Positions 315-7,940 of a stretch of DNA of 64,000 nt are shown here, piece after piece. The notes under the pieces were generated by a model that did no database searches, was not told where the DNA came from, and saw only the letters and a list, made by a program, of their open reading frames with translations. Every line of letters starts with the position of its first letter. Positions within the stretch are counted from its first letter, which is position 1. The stretch lies in the NCBI GenBank assembly GCA_947504045.1, contig CANNFY010000001.1:1302001-1366000 (forward strand). The letters run 5' to 3'. The DNA comes from an uncultured Maribacter sp. (GTDB taxonomy: Bacteria > Bacteroidota > Bacteroidia > Flavobacteriales > Flavobacteriaceae). Position numbers and translations under genes: made by a program.

Positions 315-1511
315 TTATCGTATTTGACCGTTTCCTAAAACATACCATTTATTGGTTACTAAATGTTGTAATCCAATAGGGCCACGTTGGTGTAATTTAT
401 CTGTACTAATAGCAAGTTCACCTCCTAATCCAAATTGCCCGCCATCTGTAAAACGCGTAGATGCATTATGATATACTGCAGCAGTATCTACGGTTTGCAT
501 AAAGATATTGGCTTTTTCTTCATTTGCCGTTACAATTGCAGCAGAATGTCCGCCGCTATAGGTATTAATCTTAGTAATAGCATCTTCTAAAGTAGCAACT
601 TGTCCAAAAGCAATTTTATAATCTAAGAACTCCTCATACCAAACATTATCTTCTTTTATTAGGGATGTTCCTTCTAAAGAGGATAGTGCATCATCTACTA
701 ATATTTCTACATTACTTTTCTTTAATTCTAAGATTAAATGTTGTAAAAATTGTTGTTTTCTTGGTAAATCTGCAGCAATTAATACTTTGTCTAAAGCATT
801 ACAAACCGATATTTTAGTAGTCTTAGCATTTACAATAATATCTACCGCCATTTCTAAATCGGCCTCGGCATCTACATATAAAAAGTTATTTCCTCTACCA
901 CTAACTATTACAGGACAGCTTGCGTGTTTTTTAGTAAAGGCAATAAGTTTCTCTCCCCCTCTAGGAACAATTAAATCTAGTTTTTGGGATGGTTTTTCTA
1001 AGAATTGTTGGGTTTGTTCTCTATTAAATTGTAAATAGCTAACCCAGTCTTTAGAACAGTTATTTGCTTCTAATGCTTTATGCCAAAGATCTACTAATAC
1101 TAAATTGCTATTTAAAGATTCTTTACCTCCTTTTAATAGTATCTTATTTCCAGATTTAAATGCAATACCAGCAGCTTCAATAGTTACATCAGGTCTAGAT
1201 TCATAAATAATTAGTATTGTTCCAAAAGGAGCCGTTTTGTTGCTTACTTTAATACCATTCTCATGCGTAAAAGCAAAACGTTCTACACCTAATGGGTCTT
1301 TATCGTTAGCTAATTGTTTTAAAGATAGGATCATTCCATCAATCTTGCCTTGGTCTACTTTTAGACGGTCTTCCATTGCAATATCATCTCCGGAATATGC
1401 TTCTAAATCCTTTTTATTGGCAGCAAGTATATCTTCTTTATTTGTTACGATTAACTCTGCCATATGTAATAATACAGCATTACGTTCTTCTATGTTTAAT
1501 AAAATGCTCAC
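315..1511 (-). CDS. proA: Gamma-glutamyl phosphate reductase
   Basis: NADPH-dependent reduction of gamma-glutamyl phosphate to glutamate semialdehyde, the second step of proline synthesis, in the cytoplasm. The 398-residue protein has the family's landmarks: IIYESRPDVTIEAAG near residue 101, KSGNKILLKGGKE near 119, and the catalytic cysteine in TTKISVCNALDK at about C237. Length is normal for the family (roughly 400-420). The start ATG overlaps the last base of the argD stop codon, which indicates translational coupling. Its partner proB follows 35 bases downstream. Finding proA and proB inside an arginine operon is a mixed arrangement that the leader peptide upstream may explain. Confidence 0.95.
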   Translation of the reverse strand: MSILLNIEERNAVLLHMAELIVTNKEDILAANKKDLEAYSGDDIAMEDRLKVDQGKIDGMILSLKQLANDKDPLGVERFAFTHENGIKVSNKTAPFGTILIIYESRPDVTIEAAGIAFKSGNKILLKGGKESLNSNLVLVDLWHKALEANNCSKDWVSYLQFNREQTQQFLEKPSQKLDLIVPRGGEKLIAFTKKHASCPVIVSGRGNNFLYVDAEADLEMAVDIIVNAKTTKISVCNALDKVLIAADLPRKQQFLQHLILELKKSNVEILVDDALSSLEGTSLIKEDNVWYEEFLDYKIAFGQVATLEDAITKINTYSGGHSAAIVTANEEKANIFMQTVDTAAVYHNASTRFTDGGQFGLGGELAISTDKLHQRGPIGLQHLVTNKWYVLGNGQIR

Positions 1512-2635
1512 TATAATTCTTCTTTAAGTGCTTTAAAAAATAGGTCTATTTGTTCTTTGGTACAGTTTAGTGCTGGTAAAAATCTAAGGAGTTTTTTATT
1601 CATAGCGCCACCCGTAAAAATATGTTGGTTGTAAATCATTTTTTTGCGTAGTTCCCCTACTTCAAAATCAAATTCTATACCTAACATTAATCCTTTTCCT
1701 TTAACTCCTTTTATAGCAGGAATTTCTTTTGCTTTTTCTATAAAATAGGCTCCAACTTTTGTGGCATTTTCTATAAGATTTTCTTTTTCTAAAACCTCTA
1801 ATACCGCGGTAGTTGCAGCACAAGCTAAATGATTACCACCAAAGGTTGTTCCTAAGAGACCATATGAAGCCTTTATGTTATCATGAATAAGTACGCCACC
1901 TACAGGAAAACCATTTCCCATACCTTTTGCAATACTTATAATATCTGGCTTAATATTGTGGTGCTGAAATCCAAAAAATTTACCGCTTCTACCAAAACCA
2001 CATTGTACTTCATCTGCAATAAGAAGTGCTCCATTTTCTTTAGAAAGTTTTGCTATAGTAGAGAAAAACTCTTTGTTAGGTTCATCTAAACCACCAACAC
2101 CTTGAATTGCTTCTAAAATTACGCCACATACATCTCCTTTTTTAATTTCAGCAGTAAAAGCTTCAATATCATTAAAAGGAAGTATGGTTACTTTTTGTTG
2201 TTTGTTTAATGGGGCATTTATTTTTTCATTATCTGTTGCAGCAACTGCAGCAGAGGTTCTTCCATGAAATCCGTTCTTAAATGCAATTACACGAGATTTT
2301 CCTGTTTCGAAAGATGCCATTTTTAAGGCATTTTCATTAGCTTCTGCACCAGAGTTACAAAGGAACAAATTGTAATCTTCGCATTGTGATAATTGCCCTA
2401 ATTTAGTAGCAAGTTCTACCTGTAGCGGGTTTTGTACTGCATTACTATAAAACCCAATATTATCTAATTGTGATTTTATTTTATTTACATAATGTGGGTG
2501 TCCATGACCAATAGAAATTACGGCATGACCACCATAAAAGTCTAAATATTCTTGGCCCTTATCATCTATAACCGTCATTCCTTTTGCCGAAACTGGGGTT
2601 ACATTATAGAGAGGATAAACATCAAATAATTTCAT
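1511..2635 (-). CDS. argD: Acetylornithine/succinylornithine aminotransferase (class III, PLP)
   Basis: PLP enzyme that converts N-acyl-glutamate semialdehyde to N-acyl-ornithine in arginine synthesis. Visible class III aminotransferase signatures are the NSGAEANENALKMA loop (about 94-107), the cofactor-binding aspartate in LLIADEVQCGFGR (D208), and the PLP-binding lysine in SIAKGMGNGFPVGG (K237). The 374-residue length is a little short for ArgD but normal for this phylum. It lies between proC (29-base gap) and proA (1-base overlap). Bacteroidetes are known to use succinylated rather than acetylated intermediates, so the true substrate may be N-succinyl-glutamate semialdehyde; this protein alone does not decide that. 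Ornithine aminotransferase is a less likely alternative given the operon. Confidence 0.88.
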   Translation of the reverse strand: MKLFDVYPLYNVTPVSAKGMTVIDDKGQEYLDFYGGHAVISIGHGHPHYVNKIKSQLDNIGFYSNAVQNPLQVELATKLGQLSQCEDYNLFLCNSGAEANENALKMASFETGKSRVIAFKNGFHGRTSAAVAATDNEKINAPLNKQQKVTILPFNDIEAFTAEIKKGDVCGVILEAIQGVGGLDEPNKEFFSTIAKLSKENGALLIADEVQCGFGRSGKFFGFQHHNIKPDIISIAKGMGNGFPVGGVLIHDNIKASYGLLGTTFGGNHLACAATTAVLEVLEKENLIENATKVGAYFIEKAKEIPAIKGVKGKGLMLGIEFDFEVGELRKKMIYNQHIFTGGAMNKKLLRFLPALNCTKEQIDLFFKALKEEL

Positions 2636-2664: not shown

Positions 2665-3459
2665 TTATCCTTTTTTAATTTGATTTATTTTTTCGAATGA
2701 GGCTATAATTCCTTGTATTAAGGAAGAACTTAAGCCTTGGTGTTCCATTTCATTTAAGCCTTCAATAGTACAGCCTCCTGGGGTTGTAACGCGATCTATT
2801 TCTTCTTCTGGATGGTTGCCAGATGCTAATAATAAACCAGCAGCTCCATTGCAAGTATGTTTGGCTAATTCTTGGGCTTCTTTAGCTTCAAAACCTAACT
2901 GTATAGCACCTTGTGTGGTAGCACGTATTAAACGCATCCAAAAAGCAATTCCACTAGCACAAATAACAGTAGCTGCTTGCATTTGTTCTTCTGGAATTAC
3001 CATAGAAGCTCCTACCTTATCAAAAATAGATTTTGCAATAGTAATTTTGCTTTTTCCTATATCGTTACTACACATACATGTCATAGACTTACCTACGGCA
3101 ATTGCAGTGTTTGGCATGCTTCGGATAATATTTTTATCACTACCAACAATACTTTCTATTCTTGAAATGCTAAAACCAGTAATAACGGAAATAATAATAT
3201 GGTCTGCCGTTAATAGATCTTTTACATCTTCTAGTATGGCTTCTAAATGACGCGGTTGAATAGCAAATATTAGAACGTCAGAATTTTTAACAGCTTCTCT
3301 GTTATCGCTTGTTAAAACAACGTTGTCATAACTAGCGTATTCTTTAATGTCATCTAGATTTCTTTTGGTTAGGTACATAGAACTAGCTCCGTTGCTATCT
3401 AATATTCCTTTACCAATGGCTAATCCTAAATTTCCGGTTCCAATGATTGCTACTTTCAT
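2665..3459 (-). CDS. proC: Pyrroline-5-carboxylate reductase
   Basis: Last step of proline synthesis: NAD(P)H reduction of pyrroline-5-carboxylate. The N-terminus has the Rossmann fingerprint VAIIGTGNLGLAIGKG (residues 3-18). The middle shows FAIQPRHLEAIL and RSMPNTAIAVGKS, and the C-terminal dimerisation domain carries the PGGCTIEGLN active-site segment and the HTCNGAAGLL helix, all diagnostic of ProC. The 264-residue length is normal. The gene sits between argC (83 bases) and argD (29 bases) on the same strand. Together with proA and proB it gives this one operon a complete proline branch alongside arginine genes. Confidence 0.95.
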   Translation of the reverse strand: MKVAIIGTGNLGLAIGKGILDSNGASSMYLTKRNLDDIKEYASYDNVVLTSDNREAVKNSDVLIFAIQPRHLEAILEDVKDLLTADHIIISVITGFSISRIESIVGSDKNIIRSMPNTAIAVGKSMTCMCSNDIGKSKITIAKSIFDKVGASMVIPEEQMQAATVICASGIAFWMRLIRATTQGAIQLGFEAKEAQELAKHTCNGAAGLLLASGNHPEEEIDRVTTPGGCTIEGLNEMEHQGLSSSLIQGIIASFEKINQIKKG

Positions 3460-3542: not shown

Positions 3543-4517
3543 TTAAAATACTCCAGCTTTTAAATTAAGTCCCTCATTTTCGTTAAAGCCAAACATTAAA
3601 TTCATGTTTTGCACTGCCTGCCCAGACGCTCCTTTTAAAAGGTTGTCTATGGCAGATGTTACTAACAAAGTATCGCCATGTTTGTGTAAATGTATATGCG
3701 CCTGGTTGGTGTTTACTACTTGTTTAAGATTAATTGGTTCTTCTGCAATTTGTGTAAAAAGAGCATCATTATAAAAATCTTTAAAAAGGTTTTTAGCATC
3801 TTCTAATGTACCATCATATTTGGTATAAACGGTAGCTAAAATTCCTCTGGTAAAGTTACCTCTATTTGGTAAGAAGAAAAGTTCTCCTACATTTTTTTGT
3901 AAACTTTCTAAGCTTTCTCCAATTTCTCCTAAATGTTGATGCGTAAAAGGTTTATACCAAGAAACATTATTGTTTCTCCAACTAAAATGCGATGTTGCAG
4001 ACGGACTAACACCTGCACCAGTACTTCCAGTAATGGCATTTATATGTACATCATTTTCTAGTTTATTTTCTTTTGCAAGTGGCAATAATGCTAGTTGAAT
4101 TGCGGTAGCAAAACAACCTGGATTAGCAATATTTTTTGCGTTTTGTATTTCGGTTTTTCGTAATTCAGGTAGTCCGTAAACAAATGTTCTATCGTTTAAG
4201 GTTTCATCTGCATTTAATCTAAAATCATTACTTAAATCAATAATCTTAGTGTCTTTAGAAAAGGCATTTGCATTTAAAAACTTGGTAGAATTACCATGAC
4301 CTAAACATAGGAAAACCAAATCTGCATTTAAATTTACATCGCCAGTAAATTCTAAGTCTGTTACCCCTAATAAATCGGCGTGTGCACTTGTAATTTTTTT
4401 ACCGGCTCTTGTAGTACTATACACAAAGTCTATTTCTGCCTGCGGATGGTTTAATAAAATTCGTATTAGTTCGCCTCCTGTATAACCAGAGCCACCAATA
4501 ATTCCTACTTTAATCAT
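3543..4517 (-). CDS. argC: N-acetyl-gamma-glutamyl-phosphate reductase
   Basis: Third step of arginine synthesis: NADPH-dependent reduction of N-acyl-gamma-glutamyl phosphate to the semialdehyde. Evidence includes the N-terminal VGIIGGSGYTGGELIRIL nucleotide-binding motif, VFLCLGHGNS near residue 68, and the catalytic cysteine in ANPGCFATAI at C135, followed by the THQHLGEI histidine segment. It is 324 residues long, a short-type ArgC. The start codon overlaps the end of argG by 8 bases, so the two are probably translationally coupled. Acyl specificity (acetyl or succinyl) cannot be judged from motifs. Confidence 0.95.
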   Translation of the reverse strand: MIKVGIIGGSGYTGGELIRILLNHPQAEIDFVYSTTRAGKKITSAHADLLGVTDLEFTGDVNLNADLVFLCLGHGNSTKFLNANAFSKDTKIIDLSNDFRLNADETLNDRTFVYGLPELRKTEIQNAKNIANPGCFATAIQLALLPLAKENKLENDVHINAITGSTGAGVSPSATSHFSWRNNNVSWYKPFTHQHLGEIGESLESLQKNVGELFFLPNRGNFTRGILATVYTKYDGTLEDAKNLFKDFYNDALFTQIAEEPINLKQVVNTNQAHIHLHKHGDTLLVTSAIDNLLKGASGQAVQNMNLMFGFNENEGLNLKAGVF

Positions 4518-5700
4518 TTTGTTGATTTACATGGTTATATATCTTACCAGAGTTAGAAAGTATTTTAATAAAACCTTTAGCATCCTCAGCAGACCATCCT
4601 TTATTTATTTCGCCGTAGCTACCAAAAGCATCGGTCATTAAATCGTGTTTAGAATCGATACCGTTTAATCTAAATTGGAAAGGGTAAAGGCTTATAAAAA
4701 CATCTCCAGAAACGTTCTTTTGTGTGTCTGTTAAAAAGGCTTCAATATTTCGCATAACAGCATCTAAATAATTTCCTTCGTGTAATAACATTCCGTAGAA
4801 ATTACCTTGTTGTTCTTTTTGGTATTGCTGCCATTTAGTAAGCGTATGTTTTTCTAATAAATGGTGTGCTTTTATGATTATTAAAGCTGCAGCAGCTTCA
4901 AAACCAACTCTACCTTTTGTGCCAATAATGGTGTCTCCTACATGAATATCTCTACCTATTGCATATTTAGAAGCCATGGCTTCTAACTTTTCTATATTTG
5001 CAACAGGATTATCTTTAGTACCATTGATTGCAACTAATTCTCCTTTTTCAAAAGTTAGTTTTACATCGGTAGGTTCTTTTTCTTGTAATTGGCTTGGATA
5101 TGCGTTATCTGGTAAAGCGTTTTGAGATGTTAATGTTTCTTCTCCTCCTACAGATGTTCCCCAAAGTCCTCTGTTTATAGAGTATTTTGCTTTTTCCCAT
5201 GGGTAATCTACCCCATTTTCTTTTAAGTAGGCAATTTCTGCTTCTCTAGATAATTGGTTATCTCTAATTGGAGTAATAATTTCTATTTCAGGAGCTATAA
5301 TTTGAAAAATCATATCAAACCTTACCTGATCATTACCAGCACCAGTACTACCATGTGCTATATATTCTGCGCCAATTTTTTTAGCATAATTTACTATCTC
5401 AATAGCTTGTACAATACGTTCTGCACTTACAGAAAGAGGATAGGTGTTATTTTTTAATACATTTCCGAAAATTAAATATTTTACAACTTTATCGTAAAAG
5501 GTTTGTACGGCATCTATAGAAGTATAGGTTGTTGCCCCTAACTCCAGTGCTTTTTTATTTATAGTAGCAATTTCCTCTTTAGAAAAACCACCAGTATTTA
5601 CACTAACTGCATGAACTTCAAAACCTTTTTCTTTGGATAAATTTTTTGCACAGTACGATGTGTCTAACCCTCCACTGTATGCTAAAACTAATTTTTTCAT
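4510..5700 (-). CDS. argG: Argininosuccinate synthase
   Basis: ATP-dependent ligation of citrulline and aspartate to argininosuccinate, in the cytoplasm. The PP-loop nucleotide-binding motif AYSGGLDTSYCAK is at residues 8-20, followed by the citrulline/aspartate-binding segment AHGSTGAGNDQVRFD and the conserved ITPIRDNQLSREAEIAYL and KYSINRGLWGTSVGG segments. The 396-residue length is normal. It lies 36 bases downstream of the GNAT gene and overlaps argC by 8 bases, so it is the second gene of the operon. No defects are visible. Confidence 0.96.
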   Translation of the reverse strand: MKKLVLAYSGGLDTSYCAKNLSKEKGFEVHAVSVNTGGFSKEEIATINKKALELGATTYTSIDAVQTFYDKVVKYLIFGNVLKNNTYPLSVSAERIVQAIEIVNYAKKIGAEYIAHGSTGAGNDQVRFDMIFQIIAPEIEIITPIRDNQLSREAEIAYLKENGVDYPWEKAKYSINRGLWGTSVGGEETLTSQNALPDNAYPSQLQEKEPTDVKLTFEKGELVAINGTKDNPVANIEKLEAMASKYAIGRDIHVGDTIIGTKGRVGFEAAAALIIIKAHHLLEKHTLTKWQQYQKEQQGNFYGMLLHEGNYLDAVMRNIEAFLTDTQKNVSGDVFISLYPFQFRLNGIDSKHDLMTDAFGSYGEINKGWSAEDAKGFIKILSNSGKIYNHVNQQND

Positions 5701-5736: not shown

Positions 5737-6357
5737 CTATTTATGTTTCTTTTTTAGGAATAATTGTTCTTTTATTCTTTGAAAAGCTTTGCCATTCACT
5801 TTTTCTGATTCCTGCTCTTTTTCTTCTTTTGTTGTTGCTTTTGGATCATGTAACATACCGGTACATAAACACATTTTTCTTTCTGTACGAGTTAAAATGT
5901 CGAAATTTTTGCAAGTTTGACAGCCTTTCCAAAATTCAGGATCGTCTGTAAGCTCGGAAAATGTAACAGGTTTATAGCCTAATTCATAATTAATTTTCAT
6001 TACTGCTAGACCAGTAGTAATACCAAATATTTTAGCATCTGGAAATTTTTCTTTAGACAAATTAAATACAGCTTTTTTAATTTTTTTAGCAAGCCCTTGA
6101 TTTCTATAGTCTGGATGTACAATAAGACCAGAATTGGCGACAAATTTTTCATGCCCCCAAACTTCTATATAACAGAAACCCGCAAAATTATCACCATCTA
6201 AGGCAATTATAGCATTGCCGTTTTCTAGCTTTTTTTGAATATATTCTGGGGTACGCTTTGCAATACCTGTGCCTCTTACTTTTGCAGATTCTCCAATAGT
6301 ATCGCAAATAAGTTGAGCGTATTTAAAATGTGATGTATTAGCAATTACAATTTTCAT
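5737..6357 (-). CDS. GNAT-family acyltransferase with C-terminal cysteine cluster, first gene of the arginine operon
   Basis: A 206-residue GNAT protein. The acyl-CoA loop (motif A) is visible as VHPDYRNQGLAKKI at about 80-93. After the GNAT fold there is an unusual cysteine set, C146-x2-C149 and C163-x-C165, which looks like a metal (zinc-type) site. It is the first structural gene of the arginine operon, 36 bases before argG. By position it is a candidate for the enzyme that acylates glutamate (N-acetyl- or N-succinyl-glutamate synthase), for which Bacteroidetes usually lack a classical argA. That role is inference from position, not from motifs. The start ATG is the only one near the end of the untranslated leader; a leader-peptide ORF lies about 90 bases upstream. 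Confidence 0.8.
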   Translation of the reverse strand: MKIVIANTSHFKYAQLICDTIGESAKVRGTGIAKRTPEYIQKKLENGNAIIALDGDNFAGFCYIEVWGHEKFVANSGLIVHPDYRNQGLAKKIKKAVFNLSKEKFPDAKIFGITTGLAVMKINYELGYKPVTFSELTDDPEFWKGCQTCKNFDILTRTERKMCLCTGMLHDPKATTKEEKEQESEKVNGKAFQRIKEQLFLKKKHK

Positions 6358-6406
6358 TGAATGCTTGTTTTATTAAAAAAATGAATGACTTATTATTTTC
6401 GAGAAG

Positions 6407-6466
6407 GGAAATGGACTCACCTATTTCCATAAATATAACACACCCCTACGGGCGGCGGCGTGTAGG
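6407..6466 (-). promoter_or_regulatory. Candidate attenuator structures between leader peptide and arginine operon
   Basis: In the minus-strand RNA, bases 6466-6462 (CCUAC) pair with 6449-6445 (GUAGG) around a 12-base loop containing the three CGC arginine codons; the downstream arm includes the stop codon. A second perfect 6-bp hairpin (GGAAAU/AUUUCC, arms 6428-6423 and 6412-6407) follows. Neither is directly followed by a long U-run, so a classical intrinsic terminator is not evident. A translating ribosome stalled at the Arg codons would occupy the first stem. The mechanism (attenuation, Rho access or translational control) is inference. Confidence 0.5.
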
Positions 6467-6529
6467 TACAAAAGAAGGTACTGGTGCAGTTGCACAGTTA
6501 GTTATAAATATGTTTTCCTTTGTTTTCAT
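6446..6529 (-). CDS. Leader peptide of the arginine/proline operon (27 codons, Pro- and Arg-rich end)
   Basis: A 27-codon ORF upstream of the first operon gene, on the same strand. Its C-terminal half reads TAPVPSFVPTRRRP and then TAG. This gives four proline codons (residues 16, 18, 22, 27) and three consecutive CGC arginine codons (24-26, bases 6452-6460), matching the two end products of the operon below. The Arg codons lie inside the loop of a CCUAC/GUAGG stem. A good Bacteroidetes promoter ends 7 bases before the ATG, so the ORF sits at the very start of the transcript. The layout (short ORF, end-product codons next to a hairpin, biosynthetic operon downstream) is that of an attenuation leader. 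Expression is not proven. Confidence 0.7.
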   Translation of the reverse strand: MKTKENIFITNCATAPVPSFVPTRRRP

Positions 6530-6536
6530 TACGCGA

Positions 6537-6565
6537 CAAATGTACAAATTATACTGGATTGGCAA
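6537..6565 (-). promoter_or_regulatory. Promoter of the arginine/proline operon
   Basis: On the minus strand there is TTG (6565-6563), 18 bases, then TACATTTG (6544-6537). This fits the Bacteroidetes primary-sigma consensus TTG-N17..23-TAnnTTTG exactly at every fixed position. The leader-peptide ATG begins 7 bases past the -7 box, so transcription should start at or within a few bases of that ATG. Confidence 0.75.
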
Positions 6566-6575
6566 TACGTAGTAA

Positions 6576-7940
6576 TTAATTTTTACAAAAAATCTGTTTT
6601 TTGTTACGTTGCGTTAATAATTCATAAGCAATTACTCCAAATACTGAAATATATTCAATAGAAATAAGTAATAAATTTTCTTTAAAATCTGGTTGACTAT
6701 ATGCCCAATAACTTAAAATTACGGCAGCAGACCATACAAATGCGTATTTATAATTAGTAAATAAACTAATTAGAGTTAAAAAAATAACATACCATGGGTG
6801 TATGGTAGGAGAAATAAAATAATAAAAAGTAAGGGTAAATAGCATAGAAGAAATAAGGGTGCTTAATTTTTTATTATCTCTTAAGAATGTAATAAGGAGT
6901 ACTACACTTATTGTTAATAAAGGGGTTATTTTTCCATACGTTTTTATAAGCTCCCAAGGTTTAGCATCAAAAAGAGATATTGCTATATGTTTTACGGTAT
7001 TATATATGCCGGCATTAAATTCAAAATTTGAAAACCAAAGTGCAACCGTTTCAGAATAATTTGTAATAAATTCTGAAGAATAAAAGGGAAGGGCAAATAA
7101 TACTATTGTACCGCCTATTATACTATAAAAAAAGATGCTTTTTTTAAATTTAAAATGGGTAAGAAATAAGGGTAAAAAAAGTAAGGGTACTAATTTAACT
7201 AATATAGATAATGCATAAATAATGGCACTAGTTTTCCATTTATTTAAAGATAATAAGTATAAAGACCATATAAAAAAGAATAGCATTACGCCTTCAAAGT
7301 GTAAATTTCCAGTGAGCTCTATAAGTACTAATGGGTTTATAAAATACCAAAACACTAAATGAGGAGAACGATTTAGATTTTTTAAAAGTTTTCTGCCATA
7401 ATAAACAATGCCAATATCTGCTAGAATTATAATTAAACGTAATACAATTATAGAACCCAAAATAGTTTTACCACCAAATAAAGATGCTACAGCAAATATA
7501 AGTTGATTTAAAGGTGGGTAGTTACTATAAAATTTTGGGCTTAAACTTCCCATACCATCATACAACTCTTGCGCATTAGCAATAGCTAAGTCTTTTTGTT
7601 CTATAAGTACTTTGGGTAGATATAAATATGGATTTTTAAAATTAGTTAGTAACTCCCCATCCCAAATAAAACGATAAAAATCTTGAGATAAATTAGGTTC
7701 TGCAAAAAGAAATATTATTCTAAATAGAATTCCTGTTCCGAGTAGAAATTTAAAGTTCCATTTTTGGAATTGTATAATTTTATAGCATAGTAAAAATAAT
7801 GCAATACAAAGCGAGAGAAGCTTTATAAAATCTTCTCTATGAAGGTTGTATGCAAATGTTGCATACAACAAAACACTTGTTAAAACTAATAGTATAGAAT
7901 ACTTATGTAGTTTCCAGTGGGAAGTGAGTTGCCTCCACAT
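6576..7940 (-). CDS. GT-C type membrane mannosyltransferase-like protein
   Basis: A 454-residue integral membrane protein with about 11-12 hydrophobic segments. The first extracytoplasmic loop contains NLSQDFYRFIWDGELL (about 104-119), an acidic motif like the D-x-x-R/Y-x-W-D catalytic loop of GT-C enzymes that use polyprenyl-phosphate sugars (the DUF2029/GT87 and ALG/MptB-like group). A second loop has LSPKFYSNYPPLNQ, also typical. The likely job is transfer of mannose or another hexose from a lipid-phosphate donor on the outer face of the inner membrane. The gene is the last of a co-directional group that includes a polyprenyl-phosphate GT2 (10608-11297) that could make the donor. Acceptor and sugar are unknown. 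Confidence 0.7.
   Translation of the reverse strand: MWRQLTSHWKLHKYSILLVLTSVLLYATFAYNLHREDFIKLLSLCIALFLLCYKIIQFQKWNFKFLLGTGILFRIIFLFAEPNLSQDFYRFIWDGELLTNFKNPYLYLPKVLIEQKDLAIANAQELYDGMGSLSPKFYSNYPPLNQLIFAVASLFGGKTILGSIIVLRLIIILADIGIVYYGRKLLKNLNRSPHLVFWYFINPLVLIELTGNLHFEGVMLFFFIWSLYLLSLNKWKTSAIIYALSILVKLVPLLFLPLFLTHFKFKKSIFFYSIIGGTIVLFALPFYSSEFITNYSETVALWFSNFEFNAGIYNTVKHIAISLFDAKPWELIKTYGKITPLLTISVVLLITFLRDNKKLSTLISSMLFTLTFYYFISPTIHPWYVIFLTLISLFTNYKYAFVWSAAVILSYWAYSQPDFKENLLLISIEYISVFGVIAYELLTQRNKKQIFCKN

Follow-up and report, generated by a model that had tools for sequence, protein, structure and literature searches.

How is the supply of arginine controlled in a bacterial family in which the usual regulator cannot be detected? 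Model bacteria rely mainly on the repressor ArgR to control arginine biosynthesis. A profile search for this protein (PF01316) gave no match in any of 40 relatives of the organism considered here, its own genome included, and in a control the same profile matched 9 of 14 known genomes (8 above the cut-off), Bacteroides ihuae among them. With PF01316 absent from that search, the operon at issue could not be placed among the ArgR-regulated arg operons. It lies on the minus strand at one end of a 64,000-nucleotide stretch from an uncultured Maribacter sp., the whole of which was analyzed and is referred to below as the window, and its genes within the window are as follows:

5737..6357 (-): GNAT acetyltransferase, the operon's first gene, by homology
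4510..5700 (-): argG, by homology
3543..4517 (-): argC, by homology
2665..3459 (-): proC, by homology
1511..2635 (-): argD-type aminotransferase, subfamily score 363.5 against a cut-off of 410
315..1511 (-): proA, by homology, with proB and further arg genes beyond the window

An initial annotation had described an operon in which proline and arginine enzymes are combined, and this description was borne out: GNAT, argG, argC, proC, the argD-type gene and proA are in the window, and the rest adjoins it, with part of proB, a carbamoyltransferase, argB and an ArgE/DapE-type deacylase just outside. The operon's carbamoyltransferase (positions 1633-2568, minus strand, of locus L061) scores best with N-acetylornithine carbamoyltransferase, at 283.8 bits against a cut-off of 288, and this best-scoring subfamily suggests an acetylated or succinylated arginine route.

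Upstream of the operon, the same annotation had proposed a leader peptide ORF of 27 codons with four Pro and three consecutive Arg codons, which is present as claimed and is preceded by promoter-like elements:

6446..6529 (-): leader peptide ORF, 27 codons, with its ATG at predicted +4 and ending Arg-Arg-Arg-Pro-stop
6452..6460 (-): three consecutive Arg codons CGC, read from the sequence
6537..6544 (-): -7 promoter box TACATTTG, following the TAnnTTTG consensus, with the predicted +1 at 6532
6563..6565 (-): TTG, a possible -33 element, read from the sequence

Read from 6529 to 6446 on the minus strand, the ORF translates as MKTKENIFITNCATAPVPSFVPTRRRP followed by a stop, with four Pro residues and the run CGC CGC CGC; among the 578 Arg codons of the window, CGC accounts for 33 and AGA, the commonest, for 314. 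The TTG is a candidate -33 element only. The TAnnTTTG box sits at -12 to -5 relative to the start site, according to the relevant part of PMC9723704, and the transcript is expected to begin on the leader AUG itself or a few nucleotides ahead of it.

Taken as a single sequence, the leader does not rise beyond chance. Its fold is no better than that of shuffled sequences (z-score -0.15), and Arg-Arg-Arg occurs in 3 of the 493 short ATG ORFs of the window, the leader ORF included. These two results agree with an alternative that the annotation itself had raised, namely that a GC-rich stem happens to read as Arg codons, and the significance of the leader derives from its conservation across genomes. 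Rfam models gave no match at the leader at E-values up to 1 (positions 6300-6640), and at the gathering threshold they found only a tRNA in the window; the leader could be assigned neither to the T-box nor to another known RNA family by this search.

Conservation was assessed for the 3' end of the ORF together with the structures around and behind it, which are located in the window as follows:

6441..6454 (-): hairpin H1, CGCCC-GUAG-GGGUG, with the stop codon in its loop, from the family-wide model
6438..6463 (-): longer hairpin in another register, overlapping H1 and favored by the local fold in this genome
6430..6440 (-): U-rich stretch after H1, from base counts over the copies
6407..6428 (-): hairpin H2, GGAAAU-A-GG-UGAGU-CC-AUUUCC, a covarying stem with a bulged A and a near-invariant loop

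A GNAT protein search of 60 relatives gave a match in 34, and 30 loci were fetched. Among the 24 loci of family f1 that were readable upstream, all carry the H2 loop and 21 the peptide end Arg-Arg-Pro-stop (RRP-stop), and in a 25th (L020) the leader was recognized with R1, a covariance model of the ORF 3' end and the next two hairpins that was built from 20 of these 24 loci. At E-values up to 0.1, R1 matches 160 of 249 Flavobacteriaceae genomes, representing 150 of 235 genera, and in an order-wide sample its 13 matches out of 196 all fall in this same family. The genome studied here has one strong match of 78.2 bits, followed by two of 20.8 and 15.7 bits, the former of which was rejected as antisense within argB. 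From these searches 156 copies from 156 genomes were taken forward, comprising 150 of the 160 (the ten weakest were left out) and six more members of the genus. Homology to the GNAT was found downstream in 155 of the 156, and argG also in 47, most stretches ending before argG. The sole copy without this GNAT, L065, has another GNAT acetyltransferase behind its leader, and L031 keeps the leader, with argG to follow, though its GNAT (1768-2361) is 26% identical; the leader therefore goes with the operon and not with one GNAT gene. In the best 80 of 475 GNAT loci, which come from Maribacter, Arenibacter, Zobellia, Flagellimonas, Cellulophaga and other genera and partly overlap the 156-genome set (L002 and L263, for instance, cover one and the same stretch of contig), the R1 motif is found in all 80 and RRP-stop in 79. 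Among the matches listed, which possibly do not include the window's own record, the nearest relative is Maribacter vaceletii, with a GNAT 94% identical. Because R1 was built on the RRP end, some of the agreement that its matches show in the last codons is there by construction. The comparison of upstream regions across Flavobacteriaceae, which the annotation had suggested as a check, nonetheless shows the Arg-rich ORF to be conserved: it is real, and it is part of a conserved leader in most of the Flavobacteriaceae sampled.

The distribution of arginine codons along the ORF bears directly on whether they are there to be translated. Across the 156 copies the peptide ends in RRP-stop in 126, in xRP-stop in 7 and otherwise, often past the hairpin, in 23, and the stop codon directly follows the Pro codon in 132. 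Counted from the Arg codon in the hairpin, offsets -4 to -8 lie upstream of the part covered by R1, and there Arg is encoded in 27-58 of the 156 copies in the frame of the ORF versus 1-14 in the other frames. Leaders with a single ORF (class A, below) contain 10.2% Arg before the final RRP versus 3.07% in the window. An alignment of eight genomes of the genus has four variable sites in codons 19-28 (SFVPTRRRP-stop), in third positions only, and of the 16 codons that vary within codons 2-18, 15 change the residue. Codon 19 was set as the boundary once this alignment had been inspected. Change restricted to third positions is the pattern of a leader peptide in which only the sensing codons matter. 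The in-frame Arg codons at -4 to -8 refute the idea that the CGC codons are a mere by-product of a GC-rich stem, and with family-wide conservation also against it, chance carries a practically negligible probability. The arginine leader peptide is strongly supported by conservation, frame-specific Arg, the content of the operon and the absence of ArgR: a short ORF, presumably translated to judge from its codon-position bias, stands directly upstream of a biosynthetic operon and clusters in-frame codons of the putatively regulated amino acid, arginine.

Two architectures can be told apart, with 39 of the 156 copies sorted into neither. Class A (44 of 156), for which a TAnnTTTG box was required 2-12 nt upstream of an in-frame start, has a single ORF, whose start codon stands 7 nt after the box in 32 of the 44, which puts the AUG at about +4 when the box is taken as -12 to -5; among the best 80 GNAT loci the box is present in 40, and the 7-nt spacing in 23 of those. 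In class B (73 of 156 under a permissive rule that needs three Arg, with several assignments weak and lacking a promoter box, e.g. L045, L101, L113 and L127), an Arg-rich uORF of the type MKNLKNKIRCTIPGLPVRSRRRF, here uORF1, comes first. Where class B copies have a strict box (23 of 73), uORF1 starts 4-6 nt after it in 21, at or beside the predicted +1. The search for a first uORF succeeded on the sense strand in 77 of 155 copies versus 10 of 155 on the reverse strand, and with at least three Arg in the last eight residues in 63 of 155 versus 1 of 155 under the mirrored rule. The Arg codons of uORF1 are CGC or CGT in 81% of cases versus 30% in the window, with one genome as background; its Arg content of 23% is inflated, since the selection rule demands three Arg.

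Class B leaders also have structure of their own. A long-range helix, P1, pairs uORF1 codons (such as AATAAAATACGT) with a U-rich stretch (such as ACGTATTTTTATTTTTTT), and in 55 class B copies with an ATG and a box-like site the native pairs were more stable on average than all 2000 permutations (0 of 2000), a figure that ignores kinship and has to be read with the caveat that a median of 20% of foreign strands pair equally well. For H0, a hairpin within the second ORF, 0 of 2000 swaps were as stable (kinship again ignored), compared with 1974 of 2000 in a negative control region. Class A shows H0 only weakly (34 of 2000 swaps equally stable), and the pairing of ORF and tail that was looked for as an antiterminator is not conserved (926 of 2000). 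An inverted repeat between the ORF and the H1 tail of this window was rejected because it is not conserved. In class B loci such as L164, L080 and L013 the upstream Arg-rich uORF is apparently leaderless and is joined to a U-rich stretch by a covarying long-range helix.

What the ribosome would act upon is, in the first place, H1. The annotation had located the CGC triplet in the loop of a stem. In the family-wide hairpin (6454-6441) this does not hold: the third CGC alone belongs to the stem, where it is part of the 5' arm, and the loop contains the stop codon; in the longer register (6463-6438) the claim holds for part of the third CGC only. The local fold skips the conserved H1 register in 15 of 152 copies, the window included. 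Covariation says little on H1, since most of its pairs hardly vary and the outer one is often open, being broken in 18 of 73 and again in 19 of 81 rows. Behind H1, the tail has a T fraction of 0.546 versus 0.354 in control windows (147 of the 156 copies), and at least five T in the ten positions after the hairpin are found in 78% of the 147 versus 30% of controls; the T-tract is interrupted, a run of six T occurring in just 11 of 137, and the stem is short. H1 is probably a weak terminator or a pause hairpin, and with T-rich sequence after H1 and A-rich sequence after H2 it is the better candidate of the two for such a role.

The merged arginine-proline operon is quite probably controlled by its leader, acting as a leader-peptide attenuator that reads arginine codons, and the cell most likely gauges its arginine supply by the ribosome rather than by the usual repressor protein. 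Ribosomes of these bacteria do not recognize Shine-Dalgarno sequences, as stated in the relevant part of PMC9976891. With transcription predicted to start so close to the AUG, a ribosome would load at once on the new 5' end. When arginine is plentiful, it would reach the stop codon and leave, whereupon H1 and its U-rich tail would form and transcription would end or stall. When charged arginine tRNA is scarce, the ribosome would stall at the CGY Arg codons that abut the base of H1. With a footprint of the usual size it would cover H1 from there, so the stalled ribosome would mask the hairpin, RNA polymerase would continue into the operon, and the outcome of low arginine would be read-through. 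P1 may serve as an additional, earlier gate in class B. Translation of the leader, termination at H1, the sign of the response and the role of the ribosome are inferred. For a large family without detectable ArgR, this account offers a testable answer to how arginine supply is controlled.

A different use of the ribosome's position is conceivable, in which it acts through Rho-dependent termination or RNA decay and H2 protects or exposes the RNA. The weakness of H1 as a terminator would fit, as would the near-invariant loop of H2 downstream of it, and in Salmonella the orf34-speF leader, which has two Arg codons, acts by way of Rho and RNase G (in the relevant part of PMC6386406); the tail after H1, however, is T-rich and G-poor, and in L154 a longer stem and in L158 a short stem is followed by six T. 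On this evidence the Rho or decay route is rather unlikely. The peptide itself might instead be the sensor. TnaC, with its tryptophan-bound stall of termination, is the model for nascent-peptide arrest, and the Arg-Arg-Pro-stop end of 126 of the 156 copies invites the idea that it stalls termination when arginine is bound. Yet the 23 copies without R-P-stop, many of which run past the hairpin, give the stop a variable position, which is easier to reconcile with codon sensing than with arrest at the stop codon, and the preceding residues are not conserved between genera. Arrest leaders such as TnaC, SpeFL and fungal AAP have a conserved peptide and a fixed stall site, and here only Arg-Arg-Pro is widely common, which sets the leader apart from them and makes arrest very unlikely.

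For the arginine-codon attenuator there is the further question of whether it senses proline as well, as the annotation had proposed, since the operon makes both amino acids. The distance between leader and proC is 2.8-4.3 kb in 137 of 150 genomes, and Pro makes up 8.9% of class A leaders versus 2.88% in the window. Where neither proC nor proA is linked, as far as contigs show (10 copies), the last 17 codons before Arg-Pro contain 4.1% Pro, and those of the 145 others 9.7% (p 0.004; a class-stratified permutation test gave 13 of 5000), and in uORF1 the values are 3.1% in 7 unlinked and 7.3% in 66 others (p 0.026); Arg is equal in the two groups (13.5% unlinked, 13.7% others). The 145 comprise 137 with proC linked by position, L065 with proA linked, L031 with a contig break and the six genus members L002-L007 counted without a linkage measurement, and L126 was excluded because its contig ends. 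The outcome shifts with the definition of the unlinked set: p is 0.065 and 0.16 by E-value alone, which missed four copies, and 0.001 for a wider set that included four copies actually linked and one unjudgeable. Against proline sensing, Phe is higher in the same ten copies (35 of 5000), and since it moves the opposite way, base composition or kinship may explain the Pro difference. Moreover, the four Pro are peculiar to this species (its seven congeners among eight genomes have two or three), the final Pro codon lies in a hairpin arm and is constrained by H1, and Pro positions are not fixed. A sensor of both amino acids is a lead worth keeping, though less likely than not.

H2 is the best supported structure of the leader and is without a place in the attenuator account. 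In the first 75 copies each of the five outer-stem pairs shows changes on both sides, and in the other 81 this holds for seven of eight pairs, in alignments that were fitted to the model. The loop reads AGGTGAGTCC in 108 of 152 copies and AGGTGTGTCC in 27, and in 153 of 156 the pentaloop is UGNGU. Four more, L113, L140, L145 and L164, have AGATGNGTT, in which a G-C pair has become A-U by compensatory change, and from this it follows that the GG/CC pairs close the pentaloop. The sequence after H2 is A-rich. A model of H2 (R2) gave 15 matches of at least 25 bits in 40 genomes, all at the arg leader and none elsewhere, and the matches of 22.7 bits and less include three arg leaders plus others. 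H2 is therefore a strongly conserved RNA hairpin tied to this operon in the genomes searched. Two roles for the loop were considered and rejected. One, prompted by the likeness of AGGTGAGTCC to the complement of the 16S 3' end, was that of a Shine-Dalgarno mimic, which fails because the commonest base at the variable loop site would be unpaired and four copies carry AGATGNGTT; the 16S end GGAACACCTCC was found by exact pattern in two of five genomes, the organism's own not being one of them. The other was pairing of the pentaloop with another site, whose complements do not track the loop type.

Genomes without the leader were looked at as well. Outside genus g147, an ArgG query of 16 of the 89 family genomes without an R1 match found none in 14. 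The other two, G024 and G063, have argG but no R1 match, which counts against the attenuator account; in G063 a short Arg-rich ORF and an H1-like hairpin remain, and the stretch from G024 ends short of the leader region. Genus g147 contributes 17 genomes without an R1 match in the order-wide sample, and argG is present in 7 of 8 queried. Five of its loci (L182-L185 and L187, with L185 read by eye from the DNA) have a different conserved leader ORF upstream of GNAT, SRT..P.TSPEVR with CGG Arg codons, and this leader also carries the inverted repeat ACTTC-TCCC-GAAGT; no such leader was seen in the argG loci L194 and L195 of that genus. Arg-rich leaders were found in other families of the order (L027/L188, L026/L189, L030/L190 and L196), and none was seen in two f5 genomes (L191 and L029/L192). 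Class-wide, GNAT is present in 40 of 99 genomes, and an Arg-rich ATG ORF precedes it on the sense strand in 13 of 28 loci versus 8 on the reverse strand, so that as a set these candidates are not clearly above the control. L240, L241 and L236, from other families, show possible Arg leaders upstream of GNAT (e.g. ARRPFSRRPARV-stop).

A further-reaching hypothesis would join all of these elements, so that ArgR-less Flavobacteriaceae would use a new class of ribosome sensor that reads Arg and Pro through leaderless, tandem Arg-rich uORFs, with P1 letting the first decide the translation of the second, the second controlling H1, and H2 (UGNGU, strong only in the arg leader) binding a factor or the ribosome. 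As a whole, this composite is improbable.

In a literature search that covered few subscription papers, no arginine leader before an arg operon was found in Bacteroidota, and the annotation's view that a Pro/Arg leader would be new in Bacteroidetes stands uncontradicted within the openly searchable literature. The trp, his and thr attenuators have leader peptides rich in the regulated residue. The leader described here resembles them in placing a short ORF rich in end-product codons, and then hairpins, before a biosynthetic operon. It departs from them in its end product, arginine, in an ORF that is near-leaderless by promoter consensus, in codons that abut the first hairpin with the stop in its loop, in the extra conserved H2, and in that no antiterminator was found in class A. 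Salmonella orf34-speF, as presented in the relevant sections of PMC6386406, offers a second parallel, in that consecutive Arg codons of an upstream ORF convey the supply of arginine to a metabolically related gene. There, however, speF encodes ornithine decarboxylase and is governed by Rho, sequestration of the ribosome-binding site and RNase G, whereas here a biosynthetic operon follows, and from the leader sequences no sequestration of the GNAT start is apparent. A third parallel is uORFC-8-2 before cysS of Rhodobacterales, for which ribosome-mediated attenuation has been proposed and in which, to judge from the pertinent part of PMC8632094, tandem codons likewise lie in the first of two stems and were recognized by comparative genomics. 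Its codons are those for cysteine, its gene encodes a tRNA synthetase, and a U-run terminator ends the motif, whereas A-rich sequence follows H2 here. The nearest precedent by kinship comes from Flavobacterium psychrophilum: although the relevant sections of PMC9723704 name no arginine leader, attenuation was inferred there, in the same family, before amino-acid operons, with structured 5' elements without Rfam hits upstream of pheA, hisG and others.
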